Shown piece after piece: positions 30,783 through 62,553 of a stretch of 64,000 nt of DNA. The position numbers and the translations under genes were made by a program. How positions within the stretch are numbered: position 1 is the stretch's first letter; each line of letters begins with the position of its first letter. The stretch comes from Sulfitobacter sp. EhC04 (GTDB taxonomy: Bacteria; Pseudomonadota; Alphaproteobacteria; Rhodobacterales; Rhodobacteraceae): NCBI RefSeq assembly GCF_001650875.1, contig NZ_LXYI01000025.1, forward strand, positions 1-64,000, given 5' to 3'. The notes below the pieces were generated by a model. It was not told the DNA's origin. It saw only the letters and a program-made list of their open reading frames with translations, and did no database searches.

Positions 30783-32345
30783 TTAGCTCTTGTCGTCAGC
30801 TTCTTCGGCGTCTTTCTTAAGTGCAGTATCCAGATTGACGCCAATACTGTCTCCCAGCTTTTTCAGCGCGGGCAATGAAATGGCCATGTCCATGATTGCG
30901 TCGACCGTCTGATTGATGGGTGAGGCCGCCCCCCTATCACCGGATCTCTCAAGTCCGGTGATGTGGTTGATCGAAATCCCGTTGATCTTTTCTGCCGGCT
31001 TCACCATTTCAGCAAGAATTTGTGGCAAGGCATTCAGCCGCGCCAATTCCAACGCCATCTTGACCTGCGCCTCGGAACGGGCATTTTCTGCGCTGATCTG
31101 CGCAAGGTTCGCTTCCGTTTCGGCCAGTTTCATGGCCTTGAGAGCTTCAGCCTCTTCGCGTTTGGCTGCGGTCTTGTCGGCAGCAGTGGCCTTATCGCTT
31201 GCTGCGGCGATCTTGGCGCGCGCGGCTGTGGCTTCGGCCTGTTCTTGTGCTGCGATCAGGGCGAGCGCCTTGCGCCTTTCAGCTTCTGCCATCTGGCGGG
31301 CGGTATGCACGGCTTCCGCGGCCGTCACAGCGGCAATGCGTGCCGTATCCGCTTCGGCATGCGCACGGCTTCCTTCCTGGGACTTTGCGGAAAAGGAAAT
31401 TGCGCGATCCTGTTCCGCGACTTCGATGGCCAGCGCTTGCGCTATTTCCGCGACGCGCAGTGTCTGTTCCTTGGCAATATCTGCCGAAGCGATGTCTTGC
31501 TCCATCTGAATGCGCGCCTGCGCAGCAGAGCGTTCGCTGTCAGCCTTGCGTGCGGCGATTTCAGAAAGCTGTGCTGCAATCAGTGTTTCTACTTCCTGCG
31601 TTTGCGCGATTTCGGCACGGCGCTGTTCAAGATTGATTTCCAGTTTGCGGCGCGCGGATTCCATCGCAGCGCGCGCGACACTGACCTGGCTGTCTCCTTC
31701 AATTTCGGCCCGTTCTTTTTTGGATTGCGCAATCACCTCAGCAAGTTTCCGCATCCCCACAGCGTTAAAGGCGTTGTTTTCATCCAGCGCGGCAAATGGG
31801 GTCTGGTCAAGCGCCGTAAGCGACACTGAATCAAGCTGCAAACCATAATTGGCGAGCGTATCCGTCAGGGCCTCGCGCACCTGTTTGACAAAGCTGGCAC
31901 GGGTCTCGTGCAATTCATCCATGGTCATCTGCGCGGCAACCGAACGCAGCGCATCAATCATCATTCCGTCGATCAGATTTTTCAGCTGATCGGGTTGGAA
32001 CACCCGCTGCCCCAAGGTCTGCGCCGCCCGCGTGATCGCGTCCTCGCTGGGGGTCACGCTGGCGAAAAACTCAGCGCCGACATCGACGCGCAGGCGGTCC
32101 TTGGTGATAAGGGATAATTCTCCCGACCGGGTCACGTCCATGCGCAGGGTTTGCATGTTGACGCGGTTGATCTCGTGGAAATAGGGGATCGCCAGGATAC
32201 CCCCGTCGATAATCACACGGCGGCCGCTCAGACCGGTGCGCACAAGGGCGACCTCGTTCGTGGCGCGTTGGTAGAACGACGCGGCAAGCGCGATGACGAT
32301 TGCCGCGACAACCAGTATGATGATGATCCAAGCCAGTGCTGACAT
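30783..32345 (-). CDS. Flotillin-family (SPFH) membrane scaffold protein
   Basis: This 520-residue protein begins with one membrane helix (residues ~4-24, LAWIIIILVVAAIVIALAAS). An SPFH/band-7 domain (~28-200) follows, then a very long Ala/Glu/Lys coiled coil (~210-450) rich in AEA and EAE repeats, and a C-terminal ~70-residue oligomerisation tail. It is close to the YqiK/flotillin group, which organises membrane microdomains. A strong AAGGAGG sits over the stop codon of the upstream SDR gene, with a 13-bp gap. It therefore appears to be the last gene of the aromatic uptake operon, an unusual partner for catabolic genes. Confidence 0.88.
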   Translation of the reverse strand: MSALAWIIIILVVAAIVIALAASFYQRATNEVALVRTGLSGRRVIIDGGILAIPYFHEINRVNMQTLRMDVTRSGELSLITKDRLRVDVGAEFFASVTPSEDAITRAAQTLGQRVFQPDQLKNLIDGMMIDALRSVAAQMTMDELHETRASFVKQVREALTDTLANYGLQLDSVSLTALDQTPFAALDENNAFNAVGMRKLAEVIAQSKKERAEIEGDSQVSVARAAMESARRKLEINLEQRRAEIAQTQEVETLIAAQLSEIAARKADSERSAAQARIQMEQDIASADIAKEQTLRVAEIAQALAIEVAEQDRAISFSAKSQEGSRAHAEADTARIAAVTAAEAVHTARQMAEAERRKALALIAAQEQAEATAARAKIAAASDKATAADKTAAKREEAEALKAMKLAETEANLAQISAENARSEAQVKMALELARLNALPQILAEMVKPAEKINGISINHITGLERSGDRGAASPINQTVDAIMDMAISLPALKKLGDSIGVNLDTALKKDAEEADDKS

Positions 32346-32358
32346 GTTGTCGCCCTCC

Positions 32359-33165
32359 TTATGATGACAGCCCGTGCATGTCGCACAGGATGTTCGGTGA
32401 CATGCCGCCGTCGGCGGGAATATTGGTGCCGCGGATCCAAGATGTCATGTCTGACAACAGGAAGGCGACGATAGGTGCAAGATCTTGCGGCGAGCCGGGA
32501 CGATCCATGACGCGGGCGTCCTCTTCGGCGCGTGCGCCAAGCGTTTCAAGAAAATCACCCAGGATGGGGGTATCGACCGGCCCGGGACTGACAGCGTTCA
32601 TCCGGATGCCACGGTCCCTCCAGGTCCAACGGTTTTGCATGGTCCAGGCAATCAGCGCCTCTTTGGAAAAGAAATAGCTGCGCCCGCCTGCGTTGGTGAT
32701 CTGCTGATCTGCGGCAAAGCGCGCGGCATCATCCACATGCACGCCTTCACTGGCCCGGATGGCAGGAATAGAGTCCGGCCAGCCGAATCCCGCAAGCGAT
32801 GCAAGGTTCACGATGCTGGCACCATCATTCAATTTCGGCAGCAGACCAAGCGTCAGATGCTTGAGCCCGAAGAGATTGACGGCGAGCACCTTTTCCGCAG
32901 GTGCAGTGGGCGGCAGGCCTGCAATATTGGCAATCCCGTCGATACCCTTGGGCAGCACGTCAACCAAGGCGTCAATCGTGGCGCCATCAGACAAATCCGC
33001 GCGGTAGAACTCTTCGACATGATCAAACCGTTTGGTCACATCAATGCCCAGCACCTTCGCCCCCATCGCGGTGCAGACACGCGCGGTTTCCAGCCCGATC
33101 CCCGATGCGGACCCGGTCACGACGATTGTCTTTCCCTTCAGCAGGGGTGCGCGTTCCCAACTCAT
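32359..33165 (-). CDS. calA: Coniferyl-alcohol-dehydrogenase-like SDR
   Basis: This 268-residue classical short-chain dehydrogenase has the cofactor motif VVTGSASGIGLETA near residue 16 and the catalytic set NLASLAG (Ser) and SYFFSKEAL (Tyr-x3-Lys). Its overall pattern, including the short DLSDGATIDALVDVLP segment and the C-terminal PADGGMSPN, resembles coniferyl-alcohol dehydrogenases, which oxidise the lignin monomer coniferyl alcohol to coniferyl aldehyde with NAD(P)+. The start MSWERAPLL is 1 bp after the stop of the aldehyde dehydrogenase gene, so the two are one operon. Substrate is inferred from family resemblance and context. Confidence 0.72.
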   Translation of the reverse strand: MSWERAPLLKGKTIVVTGSASGIGLETARVCTAMGAKVLGIDVTKRFDHVEEFYRADLSDGATIDALVDVLPKGIDGIANIAGLPPTAPAEKVLAVNLFGLKHLTLGLLPKLNDGASIVNLASLAGFGWPDSIPAIRASEGVHVDDAARFAADQQITNAGGRSYFFSKEALIAWTMQNRWTWRDRGIRMNAVSPGPVDTPILGDFLETLGARAEEDARVMDRPGSPQDLAPIVAFLLSDMTSWIRGTNIPADGGMSPNILCDMHGLSS

Positions 33166-33166
33166 C

Positions 33167-34633
33167 TCAAAACACCGGCGGGTAGGGGCGATCGCCACGA
33201 TCGAGCGTGATCCAGCGCGTTTCGGTAAATGTTTCCATCGACCATTTCCCCCCATGCTTTCCGACGCCCGATGCTTTGCTGCCACCGAAAGGTACATGCG
33301 GTTCGTCGTTCACGGACGAACAGTTGACATGGCACATGCCCGTTTCCAGCTTGCGTGACATCTCAAGCGCGCGATTTTCATCACGTGTAATGATCCCGGA
33401 ACTCAGCCCGTATTCGGTGTCATTGTTCAGCGCAATGGCCTCGGCATCCGTACGAAACGGAGCCACAACCGCAACGGGGCCGAATGTTTCGTCCTGCCAC
33501 ACGGCCATGTCAGGGGTGACATTGGTCAGGATCGTCGGTTCCACATAGCGGTCCCAGACCCGTCCACCCAGCACGGCCTTAGCACCCTTGGACAGCGCAT
33601 CCTCGATTTGAAACTTCACCCGTTCGACCTGCCGATCATTGATCAACGGGCCGATCACATTGGACTCGTCCGCAGTATCACCGGTTTTCAGCGTGGCCGC
33701 GCGGGCCACGAACTGGCGCAGGAATTCGGGATAGATGCTTTCGTGGACCAGCACCTTTTCCACCGACATGCAGATTTGCCCCTGATGCATGAAGCTGCCG
33801 AAACTCGCGGCGGCTGTCGCGCGGTCCATGTCGGCGTCTTCCAGCACGATCAGGCTGTCCTTGCCGCCCAGCTCGACGCAAGCCTTTTTCAGATGCGCCC
33901 CGGCCTTGGCCATGATCTGACGCCCGATGGGGGTGGACCCGGTAAAGGAAATCCCCTTGACGACAGGGCTCTCAACCATCTCGTCGCCCATTTCTGACAC
34001 GCGGTCGCGCGAGCAGGTGATGACGTTGAACACACCTTTGGGGATGCCAGCCTCTTCCATGATTTCGGCGAAATACAGCCCCCCCGCATAGGGGGTATCC
34101 TCGGATGGTTTCAACACAATCGTGTTGCCCGCAGCCAGTGCAAAGGCAAAGCCGCGCGATGACAGAATGCCGGGCATGTTCCACGGGCTGATCACGCTGA
34201 CCACGCCCATCGGGACACGTTCCACCATCGACACCTTACCGTGTTGCGACGGCAGCATTTCCCCGATGGCGTTGTAGCACATGGCAGCTGCGGCGCGGAA
34301 AACTTCCGGGACGTAACCTGCCTCGAACATCCCCTTGCCGAACCAACCGCCTCCTTCGGACCGGACTGCGTCGACAAAATCCATCTTGCGCCGTTCCCAG
34401 ACATCCGCAGCCTTCAGCAAGATACGGGCGCGGTCCTGAAAATGCAGCGCAGCCCATGCCGGAAAGGCAGCCTTGGCCGCATCAATCGCCGTGCGTGTTT
34501 CCATGCGCCCCCCGTCGGGGATCTGCGCCCAGACGGCACCGGTCGAGGGGTTGATGTCGTCAAACAAGCGGCTAGATGTCACCCAGTCCCCGCCGATGAA
34601 CATGCCTTTGATATGGTTGTGTGAATCGAGCAT
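33167..34633 (-). CDS. Aldehyde dehydrogenase (vanillin/coniferyl-aldehyde type)
   Basis: This 488-residue NAD(P)+-dependent aldehyde dehydrogenase has the catalytic Cys in HQGQICMS (near residue 287), the general-base Glu in VELGGKDS and FTGSTPIGRQI at the cofactor site. The close sequence style to vanillin and benzaldehyde dehydrogenases suggests an aromatic aldehyde substrate. The chosen ATG (MLDSHNHIKG) has AAGGAAA 6-7 bp upstream; an in-frame start 25 codons earlier overlaps livF. One base separates it from livF and one from calA. Together with CalA it would turn coniferyl alcohol into ferulate. Confidence 0.85.
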   Translation of the reverse strand: MLDSHNHIKGMFIGGDWVTSSRLFDDINPSTGAVWAQIPDGGRMETRTAIDAAKAAFPAWAALHFQDRARILLKAADVWERRKMDFVDAVRSEGGGWFGKGMFEAGYVPEVFRAAAAMCYNAIGEMLPSQHGKVSMVERVPMGVVSVISPWNMPGILSSRGFAFALAAGNTIVLKPSEDTPYAGGLYFAEIMEEAGIPKGVFNVITCSRDRVSEMGDEMVESPVVKGISFTGSTPIGRQIMAKAGAHLKKACVELGGKDSLIVLEDADMDRATAAASFGSFMHQGQICMSVEKVLVHESIYPEFLRQFVARAATLKTGDTADESNVIGPLINDRQVERVKFQIEDALSKGAKAVLGGRVWDRYVEPTILTNVTPDMAVWQDETFGPVAVVAPFRTDAEAIALNNDTEYGLSSGIITRDENRALEMSRKLETGMCHVNCSSVNDEPHVPFGGSKASGVGKHGGKWSMETFTETRWITLDRGDRPYPPVF

Positions 34634-34634
34634 T

Positions 34635-35780
34635 CTATTTCCTTTCAAAGCCGGTGCCATCGGGCTGGCGGCGATAGACTTCCACGCGGGGTGCCCGGTA
34701 GACTTCAATCACAGGAGGCGGTTTTGGCTCTGGTGATCTGTCTTGGGTCGGGGCGGTTGCGGATGGTTTGGGTATTGCGGGCGCTTTGGTGCGTTTGCGG
34801 GCTTCGATCGCGCCACGTTCAATTCTGGAGAGCGTCGCAGACAAGCGGTCTTGCGGGATTTCGGCGCTTGGCCCGTGACCGGTGGCAGGCCGCGTTTGCG
34901 CCACCGCATCACCGCTTTGACGGCTGGCTGCGGCAACTAGGTCGGCCACGGACCGGCCAAGGATCGCATCCGCCGACTGGGTTTGCTGGCTACGTGGTCG
35001 GATCTCAACGGCCGGAACCAAGGGTTCATAAATATCCGCAGCCTGCGCCGGTGTGGCGGTTGCCCCGGCGCTGCCAACACCCAGATAGGCCGCCTGAACT
35101 GCCGGATCGCGCATCAGGTTGGCGGCGCTGTCCTCATGCACCACATGGGCGTTTTCAATCAGATAGCCCCGGTCCGCAATGGCCAGCGACTGTTTGGCAT
35201 TCTGTTCCACCATCAGCACGCCAATCCCCAGATCGCGGACGCGGGTAAGGTTTTGAAACAGCTCCTTTGACAACAACGGCGACAACCCCAGCGAAGGTTC
35301 GTCCAACGTCAGGATCGCCGGGTTCGACATCATCGCGCGGCCAATGGCGACCATCTGTTGCTCGCCGCCGGACATGGTGCCGACGATCTGTTTTGCACGC
35401 TCGCGCAGCTTGGGAAACAGACCATAGACTCGCTCCAGCGTCATCTTTTCGTCGTCCCGCGCCCGTGATGAATAGGCCCCGAGCGTCAGGTTTTCGCGCA
35501 CGGTCAGGTCCGGAAAAACGCCACGGCCCTCGGGCACAAGTGCCAGTCCTGCATCGACGATCCTGTTTGCAGGCAGTCCCGCCAGATCGGCCCCGTCAAG
35601 CAGGATGCTGCCCGCAACCACCCCTTCGCAGATCCCGCTCGCTGCCTTTAGCAAGGTCGACTTGCCCGCCCCGTTGGCACCAAGGATGACCACGATTTCG
35701 CCCTTGGCGACGTTGACGGATGCCTTTTCGAGCGCGCGGTGCTGGCCGTAGTGGACGGTGACGTCATGGAGTTCAAGCAT
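34635..35780 (-). CDS. livF: LivF-type ABC ATPase with long C-terminal extension
   Basis: Residues 1-235 are a standard LivF ATPase: Walker A GANGAGKST (near 36), signature MSGGEQQM, Walker B ILTLDEPSLGLSP. Instead of ending at AAYLGV, the protein continues for about 146 residues that are rich in Ala, Pro and Arg and look disordered. This tail closes with a repeated element (VIEVYRAP then VEVYRRQP). Typical LivF proteins lack this tail. I chose the ATG at 35780, with GGGAG 6 bp upstream; it overlaps livG by 8 bp. The transporter probably imports an aromatic acid or alcohol, not a branched-chain amino acid. Confidence 0.86.
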   Translation of the reverse strand: MLELHDVTVHYGQHRALEKASVNVAKGEIVVILGANGAGKSTLLKAASGICEGVVAGSILLDGADLAGLPANRIVDAGLALVPEGRGVFPDLTVRENLTLGAYSSRARDDEKMTLERVYGLFPKLRERAKQIVGTMSGGEQQMVAIGRAMMSNPAILTLDEPSLGLSPLLSKELFQNLTRVRDLGIGVLMVEQNAKQSLAIADRGYLIENAHVVHEDSAANLMRDPAVQAAYLGVGSAGATATPAQAADIYEPLVPAVEIRPRSQQTQSADAILGRSVADLVAAASRQSGDAVAQTRPATGHGPSAEIPQDRLSATLSRIERGAIEARKRTKAPAIPKPSATAPTQDRSPEPKPPPVIEVYRAPRVEVYRRQPDGTGFERK

Positions 35781-36504
35781 CGTCATCTCCCAGATAGGCA
35801 CGAATGACTTCCTTGTCGGACAAGACTTGCGTCGGCGTGCCTTCTGCAATCTTTGTGCCTGCGGCCATGACCACGCAGCGGTCGCAAAGCGACCGGATTG
35901 CATCCATCACATGTTCCACCAGAATGATCGTGCGCCCCTCGTCGCGCAGCGATTTGATCAGTGTGATCCCGATTTGCAATTCCGTCGGGTTCAACCCGGC
36001 CAGCCATTCATCCAGCAGCAGAACCTTGGGGTCGCTCGCCAGGGTGCGTGCCAGTTCAACCCGCTTGGTATCAATATAGGTCAATTGGCGCAGGGGCATA
36101 TCCCCTTTGCCACCAAGGCCCACCTTATCCAGCAGATGTTCGGCATGATCATGCGCGTCATGCCCCCAACGACGGCGGTGACCAAAGACTGCACCGGCAA
36201 TGACATTCTCGCGCACGTTCATCGACGGCAGCAGGCGCACAAGCTGGAATGTGCGGCTGACCCCTTTGCGGTTGATTGTCTGCGCGGGCAGGCCAGAAAT
36301 CGGACTGCCCCACAGTGACACGGTGCCGGAGGTCAGCGGCAAAGCACCCGATACAAGGTTCAAAGTTGTCGATTTGCCAGAACCATTTGGCCCTAGCAAT
36401 CCAACCACCTCGCGCTCGGCTACGTCAAAGTCCATCGCATTGACCGCCACCAGACCGCCAAAGCGTTTCGTGACACCGCGCAGGGACAGAACGGGATTTA
36501 CCAT
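35773..36504 (-). CDS. livG: LivG-type ABC ATPase
   Basis: This 243-residue ATPase of a branched-chain-amino-acid-type (HAAT) uptake system has Walker A GPNGSGKST near residue 37 and a LivG-type insertion (HRRRWGHDAHDHAEHLL). Walker B is VLLLDEWLAGLNP; most LivG proteins have LLDEPxAGL, so Trp replaces Pro. The LSGGQ signature is replaced by LTYIDTKRVELAR. That is a notable departure, because the signature normally contacts ATP across the dimer; LivF supplies a normal one. The start is 1 bp from livM. Confidence 0.88.
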   Translation of the reverse strand: MVNPVLSLRGVTKRFGGLVAVNAMDFDVAEREVVGLLGPNGSGKSTTLNLVSGALPLTSGTVSLWGSPISGLPAQTINRKGVSRTFQLVRLLPSMNVRENVIAGAVFGHRRRWGHDAHDHAEHLLDKVGLGGKGDMPLRQLTYIDTKRVELARTLASDPKVLLLDEWLAGLNPTELQIGITLIKSLRDEGRTIILVEHVMDAIRSLCDRCVVMAAGTKIAEGTPTQVLSDKEVIRAYLGDDDA

Positions 36505-36505
36505 G

Positions 36506-37441
36506 TTACGCCCCTTCCCTTGCGTTGAGCCGGTGCAGAATCTTGCCCAGCAAGCCGACAAAGCCGCCGGGCAGCAGATAGACGATCACCAGAAATGCGA
36601 TGCCGATGACCAGCGTGGTCTGGTTGGGGAAATTGGACGACACGGCCTCTAACAGAAAGGTGAAGGGTATCACGCCGACCAGCGGCCCCCACAGGCGCGA
36701 TGCGCCGCCCAGCAAGGCCATGATCACCACCTGAAACGACAGGATCGGCGCAAAGGCCAGCGACGGTTCGATATAGACATAGCGCGGCGCAAGGATGGCC
36801 CCGGTCATCGCCGCGACCGCACCGGGCAGCATGAACAGCAGCACCTTCGCGCGGGCGGTGTTGATCCCGGAATGGGCCGCGACGGTTTCATCATCGCCAA
36901 TGACCCGCAGGGCAAAGCCAAGGCGCGACCGCCCGATCAGCCAGCCCGTCAGAAACACCGCCGCAGCCAACCCAAGGAGCCACCAATAGATGCCTGCTTC
37001 GTCCAGATCGGTCAGGACATAAAGCCCCTTTTGCCCGGTGTTGTTCTGCACCCAGGTGATGGATTGCCGCACCAGTTCGGCCAGTCCCAGTGTGAAGATC
37101 ACGAAATAGACGCCCGACAATCGCAGCGTCGCCAGACCCACAAGCGCGGCCAGCACCGCGCCGATCAGACCGGCAATGGCGACCAGCGACCAGAACGGCA
37201 GCGCATCAATGCCCAGCCCCGTCACATAGGTCCCCACACCAAAGAAAGCGGCGGTGGCAAGGCTGATGTAATGGGTCGGCCCAGAAAACAGCGCCCAGGA
37301 TGTGGCAAGGGTTGTGAACATTGCGATCGTGACGCCAAGTCCCAGCCAATAACCATTGTCGCCCAAAGGCAGCAGCGCACAGATCGCGAGGGCCGCCGCC
37401 GCAAGGATCAGGTTGCGGATATCGGTTTTGGTCAGGCTCAT
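36506..37441 (-). CDS. livM: LivM-type ABC permease
   Basis: This 311-residue permease has about eight to ten membrane helices and the HAAT permease loop SRLGFALRVIGDDETVAAHSG near residue 175, which contacts the ATPases. The following segments (AKVLLFMLPGAVAAMTGAILA, GGASRLWGPLVGVIPFTFLLE) are family-typical. Its ATG overlaps the livH stop by 4 bp. It forms the membrane channel with LivH. Confidence 0.92.
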   Translation of the reverse strand: MSLTKTDIRNLILAAAALAICALLPLGDNGYWLGLGVTIAMFTTLATSWALFSGPTHYISLATAAFFGVGTYVTGLGIDALPFWSLVAIAGLIGAVLAALVGLATLRLSGVYFVIFTLGLAELVRQSITWVQNNTGQKGLYVLTDLDEAGIYWWLLGLAAAVFLTGWLIGRSRLGFALRVIGDDETVAAHSGINTARAKVLLFMLPGAVAAMTGAILAPRYVYIEPSLAFAPILSFQVVIMALLGGASRLWGPLVGVIPFTFLLEAVSSNFPNQTTLVIGIAFLVIVYLLPGGFVGLLGKILHRLNAREGA

Positions 37442-38304
37442 GTCGGCTTTTTTCCAAACAGGCCCTGTGGGCGAAACAACAATATCCCAAGAAACATCAC
37501 ATAGGCGGCGGCAAGGGTCAGGCCCGGATCAAGCAGTGTTGCGACCAGCGTTTCCAGGATGCCCAGCAGCAGGGCCGCGACGATCGTGCCGCGCACGTCA
37601 CCGACGCCGCCCATGATGACGATGATCAACGCCTTGAGCGTAAAGACAACGCCGGTCGATGCATCAAGCGTCAAATAGGTTGAAATCAGCGCGCCACCAA
37701 CGGCTGTCACGGCCCCGCCAAGCGCAAAGGTAAAAGCCGACAATGCCTTGACGTCGATCCCCACAAGACGCGCCGACGCAGGCGTCGTCCCGATCGCGCG
37801 GATCGACAGGCCCGCGCGCGAACGGTTCAGCCAGAGATAGAGTGCGCCACATATCAATACGGCCATGACAAAAGACAGCACACGGTTTGCGCCATAGGTA
37901 TTGCCAAGCACCTCTACCGGCACCGCCATAAAGCTGTATGAAAAGTAATCACCGCCGAAAAAGCTCAGCATCAGGCCCACGCCGATGAACGACAACCCAA
38001 ATGTGGCGAGGATGCTGTCACTTTCCAACTGGCCACGGGACTTGGCGCGGTTGACCAAAGGTTGCAGCATCACGCGGTAGATCAGCGAATTCAACGCAAA
38101 TGCCAATGGTGCGACCAGAAAGATCGTCAGGATCGGGCTAAGCTGCGTCGCAGTATAGGCAATAAAGGCAAAATAGCCGCCTGCCACAAGAATTTCACCA
38201 TTGGCGAGATTCATGATCCGCGCCACGCCGTATTGCAGGTTCAACCCCATCGCGATCAACGCATAGGTGCCGCCCAGCAAGATGCCTGTGACCAGAATGT
38301 CCAA
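37438..38304 (-). CDS. livH: LivH-type ABC permease
   Basis: This 288-residue permease starts MDILVTGILLGGTYALIAMGLNL, the conserved LivH beginning. The cytoplasmic coupling loop SRAGLSIRAIGTTPASARLVGID is near residue 160, and GGVGDVRGTIVAALLLGILE near 245. About eight helices are predicted. It follows livK after a 61-bp gap that holds a stem-loop. Confidence 0.93.
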   Translation of the reverse strand: MDILVTGILLGGTYALIAMGLNLQYGVARIMNLANGEILVAGGYFAFIAYTATQLSPILTIFLVAPLAFALNSLIYRVMLQPLVNRAKSRGQLESDSILATFGLSFIGVGLMLSFFGGDYFSYSFMAVPVEVLGNTYGANRVLSFVMAVLICGALYLWLNRSRAGLSIRAIGTTPASARLVGIDVKALSAFTFALGGAVTAVGGALISTYLTLDASTGVVFTLKALIIVIMGGVGDVRGTIVAALLLGILETLVATLLDPGLTLAAAYVMFLGILLFRPQGLFGKKPT

Positions 38305-38331
38305 GGTGGTGTTTCCTTTGTCTGTCGTTTT

Positions 38332-38357
38332 GGGGCGGCGTTCCCTCCCGCCGCCCC
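38332..38357. repeat. GC-rich stem-loop between livK and livH
   Basis: GGGGCGGCG (38332-38340) and CGCCGCCCC (38349-38357) are exactly complementary around 8 nt. In the leftward mRNA the stem sits 8 bp after the livK stop. No T tract follows, so it probably protects the livK 3' end or partly attenuates, giving more binding protein than permease. Confidence 0.7.
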
Positions 38358-38365
38358 GTTTGGGA

Positions 38366-39565: not shown

Positions 39566-39600
39566 TGCGTATCCTCCATTTGCAATTGGTCGTCTTACGT

Positions 39601-53779: not shown

Positions 53780-53831
53780 CCTGTTTGCCTCCCCAAAACC
53801 GTTGATGTTAAAAACCGCTATACAAGAAAAC

Positions 53832-54725: not shown

Positions 54726-55763
54726 ATGAAAAGAAGAGAATTTCTGAAAACGACCGCTGCCGGCACGGCCATGATGGCCGCCATGCCCGGCGTTGCACTG
54801 GCCCAGGAAGTAACCCTGCGGCTGCACCAGTTCCTGCCCCCCGTGGCAACAGTGCCCGCAAGGATCCTCAAGCCCTGGGGCGAGCGTCTGGCAGAGGCCT
54901 CTGACGGCCGCCTGAACGTGCAGCATTTCGATGCGATGTCCCTTGGCGGGCGTCCGCCCGAGTTGATGGACCAGGCGCGCGACGGTGTCGTGGACCTGTC
55001 GATGACGGTTGTCGGCTATACGCCGGGCCGCTTCCCGCGGACCGAAGTCTTTGAGCTGCCGTTCATGATGACCAGCCCCGTCGCCACATCGCTGGCGTTT
55101 TGGCAGATGGTCGAAGAGGACTTCCAGTCCAACGAATATGCCGACTTCAAGGTGCTGGGTGCCTGGGTTCACGGACCCGGCGTGATTCACTCCACCGATC
55201 CCATCGAAAAGCTGGAGGACATGAAGGGCAAGACCGTGCGCGGCCCTACCCGCGTGATCAACGACATGCTGTCCGAACTGGGGGCCACCCCGGTCGGCAT
55301 GCCCCTGCCCGCAATCCCGGAGGCGCTTTCGAAAGGTGTCATCAACTCGACCGTGATCCCCTGGGAAGTCACCCCGGCGGTCCGTCTGACGGAACTGGTG
55401 TCGAACCACACCGAATTCTCCGGGGCGGAATCGCTTTATACCGCGACCATCGTGCTGGTGATGAACAAGGCGAAGTATGACGCCTTGCCCGATGACCTCA
55501 AGGCCATCCTTGACGCGGAATCCGGCGCCAAACTGTCGGAATTCGCTTCGCAGATAATGTGGGACTACGACGCACCGGGACGTGAACTGGCGGTCAAGAA
55601 CGGCAACAACATCATCCAGCTGGGCGAAGCCGAAGTCGCCCGCTGGAAGGAAGCGGCCCAGCCGGTGATTGAACGCTGGGTGGCCGACCTGGATGGCAAG
55701 GGGATCGACGGGCAGGCGCTGATCGACCGCGCCAAGGCCCTGATCGCCGAAAAGACAACCTGA
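54726..55763 (+). CDS. dctP: TRAP transporter periplasmic binding protein
   Basis: This 345-residue DctP-family protein has a signal peptide with twin arginines (MKRREFLKTTAAGTAMMAAM), cleaved after ALA. The mature start QEVTLRLHQFLPPVATVPAR is DctP-like. The ligand-binding region contains GRPPELMDQARDGVVDLSMT and the conserved TRVINDMLSELGATPVGMP; an Arg in that segment usually binds the ligand's carboxylate. Hydroxycinnamate or another aromatic acid is the likely ligand. A 61-bp gap follows the hydratase gene, with AGGGAGG before the ATG. Confidence 0.93.
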   Translation: MKRREFLKTTAAGTAMMAAMPGVALAQEVTLRLHQFLPPVATVPARILKPWGERLAEASDGRLNVQHFDAMSLGGRPPELMDQARDGVVDLSMTVVGYTPGRFPRTEVFELPFMMTSPVATSLAFWQMVEEDFQSNEYADFKVLGAWVHGPGVIHSTDPIEKLEDMKGKTVRGPTRVINDMLSELGATPVGMPLPAIPEALSKGVINSTVIPWEVTPAVRLTELVSNHTEFSGAESLYTATIVLVMNKAKYDALPDDLKAILDAESGAKLSEFASQIMWDYDAPGRELAVKNGNNIIQLGEAEVARWKEAAQPVIERWVADLDGKGIDGQALIDRAKALIAEKTT

Positions 55764-55806: not shown

Positions 55807-56340
55807 ATGGGGAAGTGGCTGATGTACGCGGCAAGTTACAAAATGGCTGATATCATCGCGCGGGGGCTGGCGTTTGTCGGTGGCGGCATCCTGATCCTGA
55901 TCACGCTGATCACCTGCGTGTCGATCATCGGACGTGCCTTTGTGCCGCTGGATATTGGCATCGGCCCGATCCGGGGCATTTATGACATCACGGAAATCGG
56001 CATGGCAGCGGCGATCTTTGCCTTTCTGCCCTGGGCCCAACTGCATGAAACACATGCGCGGGTCGATCTGTTCCAGGCGTTCATGCCGGGCGGATTCGAC
56101 CGGGCACTGGATCTGCTTTTCAACATCGGCATGGCCATTATCGCCGCAATTGGCACCTGGCGGCTCTACCTCGGGATGCTGGACAAACTGTCATACGGCG
56201 AAACCACATTGATTGCGCAGATTCCGGTCTGGCAGGGCTTTGCGGCCTCGCTGGTCGGGGCAATCGGTTTTGTGATCGTGGCAATCTTTTGCATCTGGCG
56301 GTCGGTCCGCAGGCTGGCCGGCATGGAACAACAGGAATAG
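55807..56340 (+). CDS. dctQ: TRAP transporter small permease
   Basis: This 177-residue four-helix DctQ subunit supports the large permease. Helices lie at about residues 20-42, 60-80, 95-118 and 140-165. The loop EIGMAAAIFAFLPWAQLHETHARVD holds the family's conserved H-x-R/D end. Two starts are possible: the ATG at 55807 touches the stem-loop, while the ATG at 55822 (MYAASYKM) has GGGGAAG 6 bp upstream and may be the real one. Confidence 0.9.
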   Translation: MGKWLMYAASYKMADIIARGLAFVGGGILILITLITCVSIIGRAFVPLDIGIGPIRGIYDITEIGMAAAIFAFLPWAQLHETHARVDLFQAFMPGGFDRALDLLFNIGMAIIAAIGTWRLYLGMLDKLSYGETTLIAQIPVWQGFAASLVGAIGFVIVAIFCIWRSVRRLAGMEQQE

Positions 56341-56342: not shown

Positions 56343-57674
56343 ATGTCGAACTTTGAACTCGCACTCTGGTCGTTTCCCGTCCTGCTGATCCTGGTATTCC
56401 TGCGCGCGCCCATTGCTCTGGCGATGATTGCGGTCGGGGTTGGCGGGACCTATCTGGTCATCGGCACGCCGATGATGACACTGAACCAGCTGAAGACGCT
56501 GACCTATGGCACGTTTTCAAACTATTCCTTTTCGATCATTCCGCTGTTCCTGCTGATGGGCCAGTTCGCCACGCTGTCGGGCATGTCGGCCTCACTGTTC
56601 AAGGCCGCAGAGAGCTTTCTGGGCCACCGTCGCGGCGGTGTCGCGATGTCAGCCGTGGGGGCCTGCGCGGGCTTCGGCGCGATTTGCGGGTCGTCGCTGG
56701 CGACCGCCGCCACCATGGGCCAGGTCGCCCTGCCAGAGCTGCGCCGCTATGGCTATCCCGATTCACTGGCCACCGGCGCGCTGGCGGCAGGCGGGACGCT
56801 GGGCATCCTGATCCCGCCCTCGGTGATCCTGGTGATCTATGCGATCCTGGCCGAACAGAACATCGAGAAGCTTTTTGTGGCCGCCCTGATCCCCGGCATC
56901 CTGGCCGCCATCGGCTATATGATCGCCATTTCGATCTGGGTGCGCGTGTCGCCGAACTCTGCCGCTGTACGCAACCGGGTGCCATGGGGGGAACGCATGG
57001 TGGCCCTGGGCAAGGTCTGGCCGGTGATCACCATTTTCGTCACTGTTGTCGGCGGGATCTATGCGGGCATCTTTACACCTACCGAAGCCGCTGCCGTGGG
57101 GGCCGCAGGGACCGGGCTGGTCGCACTGGTATCGGGCGAGATGTCATGGGACCGCCTGCGCGAGGCAGTCCTGACGACGGCGGGCTCCACTGCGATGATC
57201 TTTCTGATCATCCTGGGGGCCGGCATCTACAACAACTTCCTGTCGCTGACGCAGCTGCCGCAATCGGCCTCGATCTGGGTCGGGGAACAGGGGTTTTCGC
57301 CCTGGTTCGTTTTGACCATCGTGCTGCTGATGTATCTCGTTTTCGGCTGCGTGATGGATTCGCTGTCCATGGTGCTACTGACCGTTCCGATCATCTTTCC
57401 CATCATGATGGTGCTGGACTTTGGCATGTCGGCCAATGACTTCGGCCTGTGGTTCGGCATTCTGGTGCTGATCGTGGTCGAGGTGGGGCTGATCACGCCA
57501 CCGGTCGGGATGAACCTGTTCATCATCAACTCGATGGCAAAAGGCACCCCGATTTCAGAGACCTACAAGGGTGCCCTGCCCTTTGTTGTCACCGACATCC
57601 TGCGCGTGGTGATCCTCGCCGCCTTCCCGGCGATCACGCTCTGGCTGGTGTGGTTCATCGACAGCTTCGGCTGA
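56343..57674 (+). CDS. dctM: TRAP transporter large permease
   Basis: This 443-residue DctM subunit has about twelve helices and carries out Na+-coupled transport. Family-typical segments are PLFLLMGQFATLSGMSASLFKAA, GACAGFGAICGSSLATAATMG (the conserved substrate/ion region near residue 105), GTLGILIPPSVILVIYAI and VEVGLITPPVGMNLFIINS. The ATG at 56343 is 2 bp after the dctQ stop; a longer frame would overlap dctQ. Confidence 0.94.
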   Translation: MSNFELALWSFPVLLILVFLRAPIALAMIAVGVGGTYLVIGTPMMTLNQLKTLTYGTFSNYSFSIIPLFLLMGQFATLSGMSASLFKAAESFLGHRRGGVAMSAVGACAGFGAICGSSLATAATMGQVALPELRRYGYPDSLATGALAAGGTLGILIPPSVILVIYAILAEQNIEKLFVAALIPGILAAIGYMIAISIWVRVSPNSAAVRNRVPWGERMVALGKVWPVITIFVTVVGGIYAGIFTPTEAAAVGAAGTGLVALVSGEMSWDRLREAVLTTAGSTAMIFLIILGAGIYNNFLSLTQLPQSASIWVGEQGFSPWFVLTIVLLMYLVFGCVMDSLSMVLLTVPIIFPIMMVLDFGMSANDFGLWFGILVLIVVEVGLITPPVGMNLFIINSMAKGTPISETYKGALPFVVTDILRVVILAAFPAITLWLVWFIDSFG

Positions 57675-57754: not shown

Positions 57755-58939
57755 ATGTCCCGAAAACTGATCTTTCCGCTCTACTACGCCGCGATCCTGT
57801 TTCAAGCGGGAGCCTACGGGCTGACCTTCATGCTGCCCCGGCTGTTCGACAGCTTTGGCGCGAACGAAAAGGTCGTGGGCACGATGCTGCTGCTGACCAC
57901 TGCCGCCACGGTGATCACGGTCTATTTCTCCGGCCATCTCTCGGACCTTCTGGGTCGGTTGCGCACGCTGGGCATGGCCTGTATCGCCATCTCCGCCTCC
58001 CTGTTCCTCTATGGCACTGTGCCGGGCGTCGGTGCGGGGCTGGTGGCGGCAAGCCTGCTTTTGGGCTTTGGCTGGGGCCTGACCTATTCGCTGGGTCCCA
58101 TCGTCATGTCCCGCCTCGTGCGCGCGGATGAACGGGTGCGTTACTTCACCCTTCTCTCGGTCTTTGTGATGGCCGGGTTCGGCTTTGCCCCGGTGATCGT
58201 CTCGGCGATGGAGGATGCAGGCTTTGCCATCCGCGACGCATTCTTGCTAAATGGGACCCTGTGTCTTGTGAGCGCGGCCCTGTTCTTTGCGCTTGACCGT
58301 CCGATCAAGGCGCAGGCGGTGAATGCACGGCCCGAAGCGCCCTCCCGCATCACGCTTGCAGCGGTCGCCGGGGTGCTGCGCTCGCCCGCGCGGCTGCCGG
58401 TCTTCATGGTCTTCCTGGGGGCCAGCATCTTTGCCGGGTTGAATAATTTCCAGACGGTCTTTGCCGATGCGCGGGGGGTGGACTACGCTTGGTTCTTCCT
58501 GAGCTACACGCTGACATCGGTGATTTTCCGGCTGGTCATGGCGCGGTTCACCGGGGGGCCAAACCCATATATGACCATTGCGCTGCTGCAATGCCTGATG
58601 TGCGCGGGGCTCGCGCTGTTTGTGGTCAGCGGCGACAGCCTGCCGCTTTATATCCTTGTCGCCGTGTTGTTCGGACTGGGCTACGGCGTGTCCTACCCGG
58701 TGCTGGTGGCCATGGCCGCCGATGATGCGGATGACGATCTGGGCGCGCAGACGTTGCAGTTGTTCGCGCTGACCTATTTCATCGGGATCTTCGGCTTTCC
58801 GCTGATCGCGGGCTGGATGATCGTGGAGGTCGGCACGATGCCCCTGCTGATCCTGATCACCCTGCTGGCCGTGGTTGAGGCCGGGCTTGCTCTGCGCCGG
58901 GGTCTGGCACGGCGCAGGGCGGCAAGCGCCCTGGCCTGA
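57755..58939 (+). CDS. Major facilitator superfamily transporter
   Basis: This 394-residue permease has twelve predicted helices. The loop 2-3 motif is HLSDLLGRLRT near residue 63, a variant of G-x3-D-x2-G-R-x-G. The chosen ATG (MSRKLIFPLYYAA) gives the normal MFS length; the longer frame to the left belongs to dctM DNA in another frame. It may take up the same aromatic acids as the TRAP system or export a toxic intermediate. It converges with the CoA ligase gene, only 4 bp away. Confidence 0.85.
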   Translation: MSRKLIFPLYYAAILFQAGAYGLTFMLPRLFDSFGANEKVVGTMLLLTTAATVITVYFSGHLSDLLGRLRTLGMACIAISASLFLYGTVPGVGAGLVAASLLLGFGWGLTYSLGPIVMSRLVRADERVRYFTLLSVFVMAGFGFAPVIVSAMEDAGFAIRDAFLLNGTLCLVSAALFFALDRPIKAQAVNARPEAPSRITLAAVAGVLRSPARLPVFMVFLGASIFAGLNNFQTVFADARGVDYAWFFLSYTLTSVIFRLVMARFTGGPNPYMTIALLQCLMCAGLALFVVSGDSLPLYILVAVLFGLGYGVSYPVLVAMAADDADDDLGAQTLQLFALTYFIGIFGFPLIAGWMIVEVGTMPLLILITLLAVVEAGLALRRGLARRRAASALA

Positions 58940-58943: not shown

Positions 58944-60737
58944 TCAGACCGAGATCACATCCGCGCCCGCATCATCGGCATAGAGGCGTTCGATCAGGTC
59001 GGCATTGTTCGACCGCATGGCGCGCTGGTTAAGGGACCCTTTTTCCGTAACCTCGCCCCTGTCAAAGCTTGGGGCATCCAGCAGGACAACCGCCCGGCGC
59101 ACCCGCGCGGCTGAGCCTGTCGCGGCCTTGGCCGCCTGGGTCAGTTTCTCGCGCAGGGCAGCGCGCAGCTCGTCCGCCCCCATCGCTGTGCCCTTGTCCG
59201 ACAGCAACAGCAAGGCACCGAGTTCGGCCTCGTTCTCGCCCGCGATCACGGCATCCCGCACAAGGCCGCCCATGGCATCGACCAGGGCCGCGCGTACCGC
59301 GCCGACCGCGACCCAGGTGCCGGTGGTCAGCTTGAAATTCTCGGCGATGCGCCCGTCAAAGAAGAACCCTTTGGCATAATCATCCGGGTCGGCAGGCCGC
59401 AGCGCGTCGCCAAAGCAATAGAACCCTTCCTCGTCAAAGGCCTCTGCCGTCTTGGCGGGGTCACCGTAGTACCCCGGTGTGATCGTCGGACCCTTGAGCC
59501 GCGCCTCCAGCTTGCCGCCGTTGGGCACCAGCTTCAGGGTAAGCCCCAGCGACGGCACCCCGACATTCCCGGATTTTTCCTGCACCTCGGTACAGGCCAG
59601 CGCGAAGGGGGCGGTTTCGGTGGCCCCCAGCCCGGTGGCCAACAGCACCTCGCGCCCTGTCGCGTTGCGCCCGGCGGCGCGCAGGCGGTCCCAGGTCAGC
59701 TGCGCCATCCCCGCGCCCGCATAGAACATCATCCCGAGATCGCGAAAGAAGCTCTGCGCCAGGGCCGGGTCGTTTTCCAGTTCAGCAACCAGCATGTCGT
59801 AGCCGACGGGTACATTGAAATACCAGGTGCAGGAGACATCGCGCAGGTTGCGCAGCGTCTCGTCGAACTTGCCCGGCACCGGACGACCATCGTCGATATA
59901 ATAGCTGCCACCATTGGTGGTCACCATGTAGAAAACCTTGTTGCCTGCCGCAGTGTGGTTCCAGGGTGCCCAGTCCAGCACGACCGGCGGCTTGCGCGCC
60001 AGGAAGCGATAGCAATCGCGGATCATCGCCTGGCTGGCGCAGATCATGCGGTTGGTGTTGATCACCGCCTTGGGCGAGCCGGTGGAGCCCGAGGTGAAGA
60101 GGTATTTCACCACTGTCTGATCACTCAACGCGGCACGCGCGGCCTCTGCCCCGGAGGGATCACCGGCCAGAAGGTCATCAAAGCTGACCGCGCCCTGTCC
60201 GGCGTTACGCAGGGCAATGACCTGCCGACCTTCCTCAGCGATGGCGCTGAACGCGGGCGCAAAGGCATCCCCGTCATCGGCATAAAGCGCGCCGGGTTTC
60301 AATGTCGCCGCAATGTCCCGGAGCTTGGCGTGGTCTTTGGAGACCAGTGCATAGGCGGGGGAAACCGGCGCATAGGGAATGCCGACATAGGCACAGGCCA
60401 TGCCCAGCAGCGCATGTTCCAGGCTGTTTTCCGACAGGATCAGCAGCGGCCTGTCCGGCCCCAGCCCCATCGCCAGCAGGGATGCCCCGATGGCGCGGAT
60501 CTGGTTGCGTGCCGTGCCGTATGAGATGCGCCGCCAGTCGCCGCCTTCGTGGCGTCGGGCAATCCATGTCCTGTCCGGCGTGGCATCCGCCCATTTGTCA
60601 AAGTAATCCGCCAGCGTCGCCTCGAAGGCACCCAGTTCGCCGCGCTGGCGCATCAGGATGGTCCCGTCATCGCGGGTTTCATAGTCGAAGTCAGGCTGCC
60701 AGAAGTCCGATGCGTTCAATCCGGTCTGAGTGCTCAT
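58944..60737 (-). CDS. fcs: Feruloyl-CoA-synthetase-like acyl-CoA ligase
   Basis: This 597-residue AMP-forming ligase belongs to the ANL superfamily. The phosphate-binding loop is YLFTSGSTGSPKAVINT near residue 212, followed by ATGLGATETAPFAL near 370 and a C-terminal YAKGFFFDGRIAENFKLTTGTWV domain. Its N-terminal part (ARRHEGGDWRRISYG; LSENSLEHALLGMA) matches the feruloyl-CoA synthase type. It would activate ferulate, p-coumarate or caffeate with ATP and CoA. It lies 15 bp after the SDR gene in the leftward marR-SDR-ligase operon. Confidence 0.82.
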   Translation of the reverse strand: MSTQTGLNASDFWQPDFDYETRDDGTILMRQRGELGAFEATLADYFDKWADATPDRTWIARRHEGGDWRRISYGTARNQIRAIGASLLAMGLGPDRPLLILSENSLEHALLGMACAYVGIPYAPVSPAYALVSKDHAKLRDIAATLKPGALYADDGDAFAPAFSAIAEEGRQVIALRNAGQGAVSFDDLLAGDPSGAEAARAALSDQTVVKYLFTSGSTGSPKAVINTNRMICASQAMIRDCYRFLARKPPVVLDWAPWNHTAAGNKVFYMVTTNGGSYYIDDGRPVPGKFDETLRNLRDVSCTWYFNVPVGYDMLVAELENDPALAQSFFRDLGMMFYAGAGMAQLTWDRLRAAGRNATGREVLLATGLGATETAPFALACTEVQEKSGNVGVPSLGLTLKLVPNGGKLEARLKGPTITPGYYGDPAKTAEAFDEEGFYCFGDALRPADPDDYAKGFFFDGRIAENFKLTTGTWVAVGAVRAALVDAMGGLVRDAVIAGENEAELGALLLLSDKGTAMGADELRAALREKLTQAAKAATGSAARVRRAVVLLDAPSFDRGEVTEKGSLNQRAMRSNNADLIERLYADDAGADVISV

Positions 60738-60752
60738 TTGAAAGTCCTGTCC

Positions 60753-61526
60753 TTACCGCGGGGCCATGCGGATGCCGCCATCGAGGCGGATCACCTCGCC
60801 ATTCAGCATCTTGTTCACGGTGATGTGGTTGACCATTTCAGCGTATTCCTGCGGATCGCCAAGGCGAGAGGGGAACGGCACCTGCGCGCCAAGCGCGGTC
60901 TGCACCTCTTCTGGCAATTCGTGCAGAAGCGGTGTCAGGAACAGCCCCGGTGCCACGGTACAGACGCGAATGCCCTTGTCGGCCAGGTCGCGGGCCATCG
61001 GCAGGGTCATGCCCACGATGCCGCCCTTGGACGCCGAATAGGCCACCTGCCCGATCTGCCCGTCAAAGGCCGCGACCGAAGCGGTGTTGACAATCACGCC
61101 GCGGGCGCCGTCATCATCCACCGGGTCGGCCGTAACCATGCGCGCCGCCGCCTGAGAGGCGCAATTGAAGCTGCCCATCAGGTTCACCATGATGGTTTTC
61201 TGAAACAACCCCGGATCATGGGCCGCCCCGCGCGAGACGGTTTTGGCCGCCCCGCCGATACCCGCACAGTTCACCAGCACACGCGGCACGCCAAAGGCCG
61301 CCTCTGCCGCCGCGATGCCCTCTGCCACAGAGGCCGGATCAGAGACATCCACCCGGCTGAACCCGCCGCCGATGCGGGCGGCATGCGCCTCGCCCTGTTC
61401 GGTGTTCAGATCGAACAGCATCACCTTCAACCCGGCCTGTGCCAGGCGGGCCGCCGTCGCCGCACCCAGTCCGGACGCGCCACCGGTGACAATCGCGGCA
61501 TGGCCGCTCCAGTCCTGCAATGTCAT
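60753..61526 (-). CDS. SDR, probable aryl beta-hydroxyacyl-CoA dehydrogenase
   Basis: This 257-residue short-chain dehydrogenase has VTGGASGLGAATAARL near residue 14, NCAGIGGA near 88, NTASVAAFDGQ (Ser) and Tyr-x3-Lys in AYSASKGG. The sequence is close to the HSD10-type 3-hydroxyacyl-CoA dehydrogenases. Between the hydratase and the hydrolase this fits oxidation of 4-hydroxyphenyl-beta-hydroxypropionyl-CoA to the beta-keto form. It overlaps the marR gene by 4 bp and precedes the ligase gene by 15 bp. Confidence 0.85.
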   Translation of the reverse strand: MTLQDWSGHAAIVTGGASGLGAATAARLAQAGLKVMLFDLNTEQGEAHAARIGGGFSRVDVSDPASVAEGIAAAEAAFGVPRVLVNCAGIGGAAKTVSRGAAHDPGLFQKTIMVNLMGSFNCASQAAARMVTADPVDDDGARGVIVNTASVAAFDGQIGQVAYSASKGGIVGMTLPMARDLADKGIRVCTVAPGLFLTPLLHELPEEVQTALGAQVPFPSRLGDPQEYAEMVNHITVNKMLNGEVIRLDGGIRMAPR

Positions 61527-62002
61527 TCCACCTCTCCCTTCGATCTGATTTTGCGCAGCAAGTTGATCAACACGCGTTGCTCTGCCGCAGAGAGGTCGGC
61601 CAGCAGCGCCTTTTCATGGGCGCGCACTGTCGCGACCGCCTCTGCATAGGCGCTGCGCCCCTTCTGCGTCGGCACCAGTGCCTGAACCCGCCGGTCCCCC
61701 GGCACGGTTGCGCGCGACAGATACCCCAGCCCTTCCAGCTCATCGACGATGGCCACGAGGCCCGACCGTTCAATGCCCAGCCTGCGGGCCAGTTTGCTCT
61801 GCGAGATATGGGGGAACTGAACAACCAGCGACAGGGCCGAAAAGACACGCGGTGCCAGCGAATCCTGCCCAAGTGCCTCGCGAAAATCGGCCTGAACGAT
61901 CACATAGGCACGTTTGAGGTTATAGCCGACAAACTGTTCAAGGTCGGATATGACGTGTTCATCATCCTGGTCCACCTCCTGGACCTTTGCCCCTGCAGCC
62001 AT
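61523..62002 (-). CDS. MarR-family regulator (HcaR-like)
   Basis: This 159-residue winged-helix protein has the recognition region SQSKLARRLGIERSGLVAIV (near residue 70) and the wing RATVPGDRRVQALVPT. The ATG at 62002 is 8 bp from GGGGAGG; the GTG three codons upstream would overlap that site. MarR proteins of this type commonly repress hydroxycinnamate genes until a CoA-thioester binds. It is the first gene of the operon with the SDR and ligase, and the palindrome at 62047-62063 lies 45 bp upstream. Confidence 0.88.
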   Translation of the reverse strand: MAAGAKVQEVDQDDEHVISDLEQFVGYNLKRAYVIVQADFREALGQDSLAPRVFSALSLVVQFPHISQSKLARRLGIERSGLVAIVDELEGLGYLSRATVPGDRRVQALVPTQKGRSAYAEAVATVRAHEKALLADLSAAEQRVLINLLRKIRSKGEVE

Positions 62003-62046
62003 ACTGCGCACCTCCCCTGTTTGCTTGGGGGAAGTTTACAGGATAT

Positions 62047-62063
62047 TGTTTATCTGGTAAACA
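62047..62063. promoter_or_regulatory. Candidate MarR operator between marR and DUF3237 genes
   Basis: TGTTTATCTGGTAAACA has exact 6-bp arms (TGTTTA/TAAACA) around 5 nt. It is 45 bp upstream of marR and 26 bp upstream of the DUF3237 gene. A related site is at 53832-53848. Confidence 0.65.
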
Positions 62064-62088
62064 GTTTAATGAGATAAGGATCGCCCCG

Positions 62089-62553
62089 ATGAACCTTCCT
62101 GACCCCAGACTGGAGCATGCCTGCGACCTGACCGTGGAACTGGACCCGATCCGCGAGATGGGACCGGGCCGGGCCGGTCAACGGCGGATCATCCCGATTG
62201 TCGGCGGCACGGTCAGCGGCCCGCTGCTGCAAGGCAAACTGCTGAACCTCGGCGCGGACTGGCAGACCATCTTTGCCGACGGTCTGGCCGAACTTGATAC
62301 CCGCTATGCAATGGAAACCCACGACGGGGCCACGATAGAGATCGTGAACTACGGGCTGCGCCATGGCCCGCCGGACGTGCTGGCGGCGATCATGCGGGGC
62401 GAACAGGTTTCCGCTGACAACTATTACATGCGCACCCATGCGCGGCTTGAGACCGGCGACACCCGATATGACTGGGTGAACCGGACCCTGTTCGCAGGCG
62501 TCGGCGCGCGGCACCTGCAACAGGTTCATATCCGCCTTTATGCGATCAGATAG
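62089..62553 (+). CDS. DUF3237 protein
   Basis: This 154-residue protein is a DUF3237-type small beta-barrel: LEHACDLTVELDPI at the start, RRIIPIVGGTVSGPLLQGKL near residue 40, ADWQTIFADGLAELDTRYAM, and YDWVNRTLFAGVGAR near the end. Family function is unknown, though such genes recur in aromatic catabolic clusters. The ATG at 62089 has AAGGA about 8 bp upstream. It is divergent from marR with the candidate operator in between, which suggests membership of the same regulon. Confidence 0.75.
   Translation: MNLPDPRLEHACDLTVELDPIREMGPGRAGQRRIIPIVGGTVSGPLLQGKLLNLGADWQTIFADGLAELDTRYAMETHDGATIEIVNYGLRHGPPDVLAAIMRGEQVSADNYYMRTHARLETGDTRYDWVNRTLFAGVGARHLQQVHIRLYAIR

Follow-up and report, generated by a model that had tools for sequence, protein, structure and literature searches.

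Does this stretch of the Sulfitobacter sp. EhC04 genome encode one split pathway for lignin-type phenylpropanoids, or two neighbouring systems with separate tasks? The window, by which we mean the whole 64,000-nucleotide stretch that was analysed (bases 1-64000 of contig C25), comes from the 4.85 Mb, 89-contig genome of a marine-type bacterium. It holds two gene groups of interest, module 1 (30783-42044, with its divergent AraC gene) and module 2 (49949-62553). A sequence-only reading of the window had proposed that module 1 converts coniferyl alcohol to ferulate and that module 2 carries ferulate on to vanillate and acetyl-CoA. Its observations were largely right, with the genes lying where it had placed them, although some labels had to be amended and several genes added; as for its interpretation, homology and gene context support the hydroxycinnamate half but not the coniferyl alcohol half or the junction. 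The core enzymes of module 2 very probably follow a known route for the catabolism of plant hydroxycinnamates such as ferulate and p-coumarate; two further genes join it, one for a protein related to the VirH2 demethylase of Agrobacterium and one for a small DUF3237 protein. We hold with moderate confidence the fuller statement that this hydroxycinnamate cluster includes a VirH2-like cytochrome P450 step, forms a regulon of its MarR regulator and a conserved double box, and is separate from module 1. All the functions given here are predictions transferred by homology.

Module 2 comprises the following genes (ORF, open reading frame; PDB, Protein Data Bank).

49949..51127, minus strand: cytochrome P450 of the VirH2 type, candidate aromatic O-demethylase (ferulate to caffeate); PF00067, 62.5% identity to a Ti-plasmid P450, and tree.
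51190..52839, minus strand: esterase of the tannase/feruloyl esterase family, accessory; PF07519, 354.7 bits, CSNGG and HC motifs.
52892..53779, minus strand: amidohydrolase, relative of '4-hydroxyphenyl-beta-ketoacyl-CoA hydrolase'; PF04909, public names, 79% identity to Agrobacterium locus L050.
53882..54664, plus strand: enoyl-CoA hydratase/crotonase (ECH); PF00378, 142.5 bits; nearest PDB entry 3hin.
54726..55763, plus strand: solute-binding protein DctP of a tripartite ATP-independent periplasmic (TRAP) transporter; PF03480; nearest PDB entry 7nr2, 388.6 bits.
55807..56340, plus strand: TRAP small permease DctQ; PF04290.
56343..57674, plus strand: TRAP large permease DctM; TIGR00786, 288.8 bits against a cut-off of 268.45, on the longer ORF 56289-57674.
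57755..58939, plus strand: major facilitator superfamily (MFS) transporter; PF07690, on the longer ORF 57449-58939.
58944..60737, minus strand: hydroxycinnamate (feruloyl)-CoA ligase-like enzyme; PRK12582, 678 bits against a cut-off of 777; 48% identity to L050.
60753..61526, minus strand: short-chain dehydrogenase/reductase (SDR), candidate 3-hydroxyacyl-CoA dehydrogenase of the pathway; PF00106.
61523..62011, minus strand: MarR-family regulator; PF12802/PF01047.
62089..62553, plus strand: DUF3237 (UPF0311) protein, small beta-barrel, candidate quinone-methide enzyme; PF11578, 159.4 bits on a longer ORF; 3c5o (RPA1785).

From position 53779 the amidohydrolase, the tannase-family esterase and the P450 run along the minus strand, separated by 52 and 62 bases, and diverging from the amidohydrolase a plus-strand run holds the crotonase, the TRAP genes dctPQM and the MFS transporter. 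On the right side the regulator, the SDR and the ligase lie on the minus strand, with the DUF3237 gene divergent from marR. The sequence-only reading had named most of this cluster, but had overlooked the P450, the MarR regulator and the DUF3237 protein. Pfam and NCBIfam models bear out its amidohydrolase, SDR, TRAP and MFS assignments, the esterase is indeed a tannase/feruloyl esterase family member, and its hydratase matches the ECH family above cut-off (53924-54661). The ligase is confirmed as an AMP-ligase family member but misses the cut-off of its model, PRK12582. The nearest solved relative of the esterase is MHETase (331.4 bits).

The likeness of module 2 to the Agrobacterium gene set for hydroxycinnamates, also put forward in the sequence-only reading, held up: ligase, ECH, dehydrogenase and a 3-ketoacyl-CoA-cleaving amidohydrolase stand in one locus together with a MarR regulator. 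The motifs HTH, FHTG, AHPS and GSDW, which presumably form the metal site, are retained in the amidohydrolase, whose relatives are publicly named 4-hydroxyphenyl-beta-ketoacyl-CoA hydrolase; the nearest named ones come mostly from Roseobacter and Paracoccaceae genomes. The SpG8-1b region of A. fabrum (Atu1415-1422) has the same set of CoA ligase, ECH, dehydrogenase, 3-ketoacyl-CoA enzyme and MarR repressor, and the route is described there as running from feruloyl-CoA synthase through enoyl-CoA hydratase and hydroxypropionyl-CoA dehydrogenase to a last enzyme, termed a beta-keto-thiolase, that yields vanillate (PMC7797058). We made the comparison through the sequences of Agrobacterium salinitolerans (L050), whose amidohydrolase and ligase are 79% and 48% identical to those of the window. 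L050 differs in having a folate-type gene (GCV_T) next to its amidohydrolase and, within its 20.9 kb, no P450, TRAP or DUF3237 match, whereas the window has P450, TRAP, tannase, MFS and DUF3237 genes.

The tannase-family esterase would cut hydroxycinnamate esters, and the free acids would enter through the TRAP transporter, as its gene linkage suggests. With the steps transferred from A. fabrum, the ligase would form the CoA thioester, the crotonase would hydrate it, the SDR would oxidise the 3-hydroxy group, and the amidohydrolase would split the 3-ketoacyl-CoA into a benzoic acid and acetyl-CoA. p-Coumarate would thus give 4-hydroxybenzoate, to be passed on through PobA and PcaHG. A search of the genome for downstream genes, as the sequence-only reading had proposed, found sinks for these products: PobA at C17 (626.4 bits, cut-off 538.7) and PcaH at C89 (350.6 bits, cut-off 296.4) score above their cut-offs, as does a match to VanA_C, another possible demethylase.

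Is this grouping more than a chance neighbourhood? A scan for the amidohydrolase with one genome per species gave at least 593 matching stretches, at least 547 of which code for a relative. We analysed the 80 best loci, with up to 10 kb fetched on each side, and a gene was counted as present when a tblastn match above set identity limits lay inside the fetched stretch; all locus counts refer to these 80. In 33 of them, some cut by contig ends, the amidohydrolase is at least 87% identical to that of the window. Among these close loci ECH recurs in 30, MarR in 23, the ligase in 22, TRAP DctP in 21 and the SDR in 20, followed by the P450 (18, each time in one locus with the amidohydrolase), DUF3237 (17) and the tannase (3); the MFS transporter had no match in any of the 80 loci. 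For the 24 close loci whose sequence spans 7.5 kb to either side, the count is 14 for P450 and 14 for DUF3237. The other 47 loci include 34 Agrobacterium-like ones, where ECH (34), ligase (33) and SDR (27) recur as well, but P450 and TRAP DctP were found in two each and DUF3237 in only one. Because ECH, MarR, ligase and SDR recur so often in the close loci, the gene grouping of module 2 exceeds chance by sequence comparison, and from these counts the core enzymes appear to be general, with P450, TRAP and DUF3237 marking the type found in this window.

Co-occurrence was also counted among 248 family genomes, with statistics that ignore kinship. The amidohydrolase is present in 45 of the 50 genomes with DUF3237, compared with 71 of 248 overall. 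This ties DUF3237, a widespread family of mostly obscure role, to hydroxycinnamate catabolism. Related gene sets occur further afield. In two contigs, titled Chromatiales (L005) and Granulosicoccaceae (L010), the amidohydrolase likewise has a P450 relative in its locus, and Rhizobium sp. Q54 has a 'feruloyl-CoA synthase', a '4-hydroxyphenyl-beta-ketoacyl-CoA hydrolase', MarR, ECH and TRAP together. A plasmid of Paracoccus aestuarii holds, in a single run, pobA, an aldehyde dehydrogenase (ALDH), P450, a 2Fe-2S protein, a FAD reductase, TRAP, an AMP-binding protein, ECH, MarR, amidohydrolase, acyl-CoA dehydrogenase and SDR.

What might the P450 add to the route? The protein is 62.5% identical, over 392 residues, to a P450 in records of the Agrobacterium Ti plasmid. 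In the record examined two P450 genes directly precede virK, the matching one being the second, and a VirA-like gene lies beyond. We take this pair to be virH1-virH2; the other Ti P450 is just 24.6% identical to the window protein. By sequence the window P450 falls in the VirH2 subfamily, its matches in the 248 genomes being at least 57% identical and the next ones at most 42%. A tree of 52 rows, its root uncertain, puts VirH2 in a clade of 12 rows whose neighbour, a clade of 25 rows, includes the window P450; the P450 of L010 lies inside the VirH2 clade. VirH2 and the window P450 differ in setting, the latter being part of a hydroxycinnamate operon in a Rhodobacterales-type genome. A VirH2-clade paralog in the same genome (L150, G000:C23:225500-245000, at 8151-11864) has its own LysR gene and is followed by a 107-residue ORF, a putative 2Fe-2S ferredoxin, and then by a FAD reductase.

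The nearest solved structure is 6g71, with which the window P450 has the I-helix motif GGG(I/L)NEP in common, and next come entries of the aromatic O-demethylase GcoA, which we take to be the guaiacol demethylase. This kinship supports an aromatic O-demethylase in general; it could also speak for a P450 that acts after side-chain shortening, in the step from vanillate to protocatechuate, or on acids with 4-methoxy or dimethoxy groups, and not on ferulate itself. Such a late step would also suit the position of the P450 gene, last in the run of amidohydrolase, tannase and P450, and the P450 relatives that adjoin TRAP genes without an amidohydrolase. It is at odds with VirH2 itself, an O-demethylase that converts ferulic acid to caffeic acid according to a review (PMC6683767), and although possible it is a reading that we lean against.

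If the window P450 acts as VirH2 does, it would take off the 3-O-methyl group, with ferulate as the most likely substrate and with electrons supplied by a ferredoxin and a reductase whose genes lie outside the window, perhaps those beside the C23 paralog, and the caffeate formed would reach protocatechuate directly, bypassing vanillate. The acetyl-CoA named as an end product in the sequence-only reading fits the route, but the vanillate end point is doubtful because the P450 is VirH2-like. The P450 would then be a candidate demethylase distinct from the folate-dependent and Rieske types, and a concrete order of steps could be written for ferulate use in marine bacteria of the Rhodobacterales type.

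The regulator offers a further clue. The gap between the amidohydrolase gene (amh) and the ECH gene (ech) holds a conserved double box with the consensus GCTATACAnnAaAACcGTTannctnTAcAACA, and a weaker copy lies in the gap between marR and the DUF3237 gene.

53817..53848, plus strand: conserved double box, candidate MarR operator or promoter element; amh-ech gap.
62047..62078, minus strand: second, weaker double-box copy; marR-DUF3237 gap, score 15.6.

Of the corresponding gaps in 28 related loci, 20 agree with the pattern in 20-23 of its 23 positions, and eight do so in 17-18. A matrix built from these 28 gaps, with the window left out, scores 49.9 on the amh-ech gap of the window. When shifts overlapping that site are set aside, its best other place in the 64 kb is the marR-DUF3237 gap, at a score that one of 2000 shuffles equalled, and after it the best unrelated place reaches -1.3. 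Compared with 30 random stretches, the sequence before marR exceeds their median in all 23 related loci and their maximum in 10 of them, some of these stretches including the amh-ech site itself. If MarR is the binder, it would control two divergent promoters through the double box and would place DUF3237 in the same regulon.

Taken together, the VirH2-like P450, its sharing of loci with the amidohydrolase, the co-occurrence of DUF3237 and the box suggest that ferulate may be demethylated first, with protocatechuate formed without vanillate. Several observations weigh against the reading of module 2 as a whole. The Ti-plasmid record says 'cytochrome P450', its identity as VirH2 following from position and the usual naming of such genes, and the window P450 sits in the sister clade, outside the VirH2 clade, in a tree with several weak forks. 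Among the 248 genomes, 26 of the 33 strongest P450 matches have no amidohydrolase match within 10 kb on their contig, and the P450 therefore has further contexts; one plasmid relative adjoins a Liv-type importer, which speaks against exclusivity. A ferredoxin/reductase partner for the P450 was not found in the 64-kb window. A folate-dependent vanillate O-demethylase (GCV_T) was likewise absent among the scanned module 2 proteins, but the genome has a 40% relative of the Agrobacterium folate-type gene at C23:97395 and a VanA_C match (37.1 bits, cut-off 23.5), so that demethylation of vanillate by another enzyme is possible. As for the box, half of it alone still ranks the marR-DUF3237 gap second, at 13.9, but with other places close (13.0 and 11.9), and the double box may be a promoter element.

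The protein encoded at 62089..62553 has the domain and fold of DUF3237; its closest named proteins are from Sulfitobacter, and it is 38% identical to 3c5o (RPA1785) in a structural alignment. The coumarate cluster of R. palustris to which RPA1785 belongs resembles module 2 in its TRAP genes (TarPQM, RPA1782-1784), ligase, ECH, MarR-type regulator (CouR, RPA1794) and DUF3237 relative (RPA1785, UPF0311), with CouP at RPA1789. The nearest solved structure of the window ECH, 3hin, is also an R. palustris protein. Could module 2 then follow the non-beta-oxidative route described for that cluster, with hydratase/lyase cleavage to an aromatic aldehyde? The TRAP genes and the DUF3237 relative would agree with it, but module 2 includes an SDR and an amidohydrolase, an ALDH was not found among its proteins, and the ECH has glutamates at GGGLE and LPEG, presumably the catalytic residues of a hydratase; we consider this route very unlikely.

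By domain alone, the DUF3237 protein can also be likened to PinX, PhcF and PhcG, which belong to pinoresinol and phenylcoumaran (dilignol) pathways (PMC12607616), whereas in the window the protein stands beside a monomer pathway. The activity expected of this group is a decarboxylation, probably by way of a quinone methide. More tentatively, demethylation first (P450 to caffeate, no vanillate) could be combined with a DUF3237 protein acting in the same regulon as a p-quinone-methide enzyme, for example in the decarboxylative dehydration of 3-hydroxy-3-arylpropionate leaked as the free acid. Should this combination hold, which we think doubtful, VirH2 of the Ti plasmid would be part of a wider family of demethylases from hydroxycinnamate clusters.

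Does module 1 feed this pathway? Its genes are as follows (ABC, ATP-binding cassette).

30783..32345, minus strand: flotillin, last gene of the module 1 operon; PF15975/PF01145.
32359..33168, minus strand: SDR (calA) of subfamily PRK12428 ('coniferyl-alcohol dehydrogenase'); 285.6 bits against a cut-off of 242, on ORF 32359-33297.
33167..34708, minus strand: aldehyde dehydrogenase 1 (aldh1); PF00171; true start probably near 34636.
34635..39604, minus strand: Liv-type ABC importer with LivF, LivG, LivM, LivH and the substrate-binding protein (sbp).
39601..40989, minus strand: aldehyde dehydrogenase 2 (aldh2); PF00171.
41124..42044, plus strand: AraC-family regulator, divergent from module 1; PF12833; HpaA model 101.1 bits against a cut-off of 274.65.

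Module 1 is a conserved operon in the order aldh2-sbp-livHMGF-aldh1-SDR-flotillin. All ten genes, araC included, stand in order in six of the 13 relatives fetched (L161, L162, L163, L165, L166 and L168), the remaining seven being cut by the stretch or contig or lacking aldh2 and araC, and flotillin-SDR-aldh1 is kept in all 14 close orthologs, the window counted. The sequence-only reading was right in the main about this operon: the Liv-type importer is there and the SDR passes the PRK12428 cut-off. It left the last gene, the flotillin, unnamed, and of its two 'aromatic-type' aldehyde dehydrogenases the family stands but not the epithet, the best models (SSADH, HpaE and BADH) scoring far below cut-off. 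The sugar-alcohol operon that it saw between the modules is also present (mannitol dehydrogenase, sugar ABC and LacI genes, 42250-49800).

The proposed split pathway, with module 1 taking coniferyl alcohol to ferulate and module 2 leading on to vanillate (or protocatechuate) and acetyl-CoA, draws on the SDR score, on the lack in module 1 of onward enzymes past the acid, and on the modules being neighbours in this genome. Genomes with close calA orthologs are moreover enriched, kinship ignored, in the amidohydrolase (9 of 14, compared with 71 of 248 overall, p=0.005), the close P450 (7 of 14, compared with 13 of 248, p=4.8e-7) and DUF3237 (9 of 14, compared with 50 of 248, p=2.6e-4), a pattern that favours some link to aromatic catabolism or shared ancestry. 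However, five of the 14 have no amidohydrolase (one of these five genomes is 75% complete), and where calA and module 2 genes co-occur they lie on other contigs or far apart, with no close pair outside the genome of the window in the lists examined. Relatives of calA, aldh1 and flotillin at the set limits were found in none of the 80 amidohydrolase loci, and the double box is absent from the promoter gap of module 1 (aldh2-araC), where 758 of 2000 shuffles score as well.

The substrate is in question as well. PRK12428 is a subfamily model, and the 'coniferyl alcohol' assignment rests, by sequence, on this one label. Among plasmid-borne relatives of the SDR (42-58% identity, 20 of 98 records listed) the labels are inconsistent, being 3-alpha-hydroxysteroid dehydrogenase or coniferyl-alcohol dehydrogenase, and the nearest PDB entry is a 3alpha-hydroxysteroid dehydrogenase/carbonyl reductase. 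The P. putida gene formerly called calA, which was reported to encode an aromatic aldehyde reductase of a different enzyme family (PMC7054097), is a warning about such labels. Two of the seven sister operons looked at, L175 (6350-11836) and L183 (6626-11248), with SDRs 57-60% identical, differ in carrying another SDR, an alpha/beta hydrolase and a monooxygenase like the flavin-containing ones, pointing to ketone or ester substrates there. Neither the conversion of coniferyl alcohol to ferulate by module 1 nor a junction of the modules at ferulate is thus borne out, and we judge the split pathway unlikely. The safest reading of module 1 is a separate import operon in which an alcohol is oxidised to an acid, and neighbouring operons are not to be joined on a subfamily label.

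Some further observations concern the relatives and surroundings of the two modules. The membrane scaffold protein flotillin closes an import and oxidation operon in all 14 close orthologs of module 1, and L175 and L183 are of interest for possible ketone catabolism. In L169 (G001:C3:281500-301000, at 13458-19093) a sugar-type ABC operon beside module 1 resembles window positions 45523-48679, three of its proteins being 56-61% identical. Close relatives of module 2 in L159 (10278-13069) and L158 (3861-6723) have an acyl-CoA dehydrogenase and a FAD_binding_3 protein after the P450, which suggests entry of dihydro-hydroxycinnamates, and in L005 a sulfatase adjoins DUF3237 (6133-8473) and might point to sulfated phenolics. 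At 62571-63986 the window holds a thiamine pyrophosphate-dependent enzyme with most of its N-terminal domain absent, the gene probably continuing beyond the window end.

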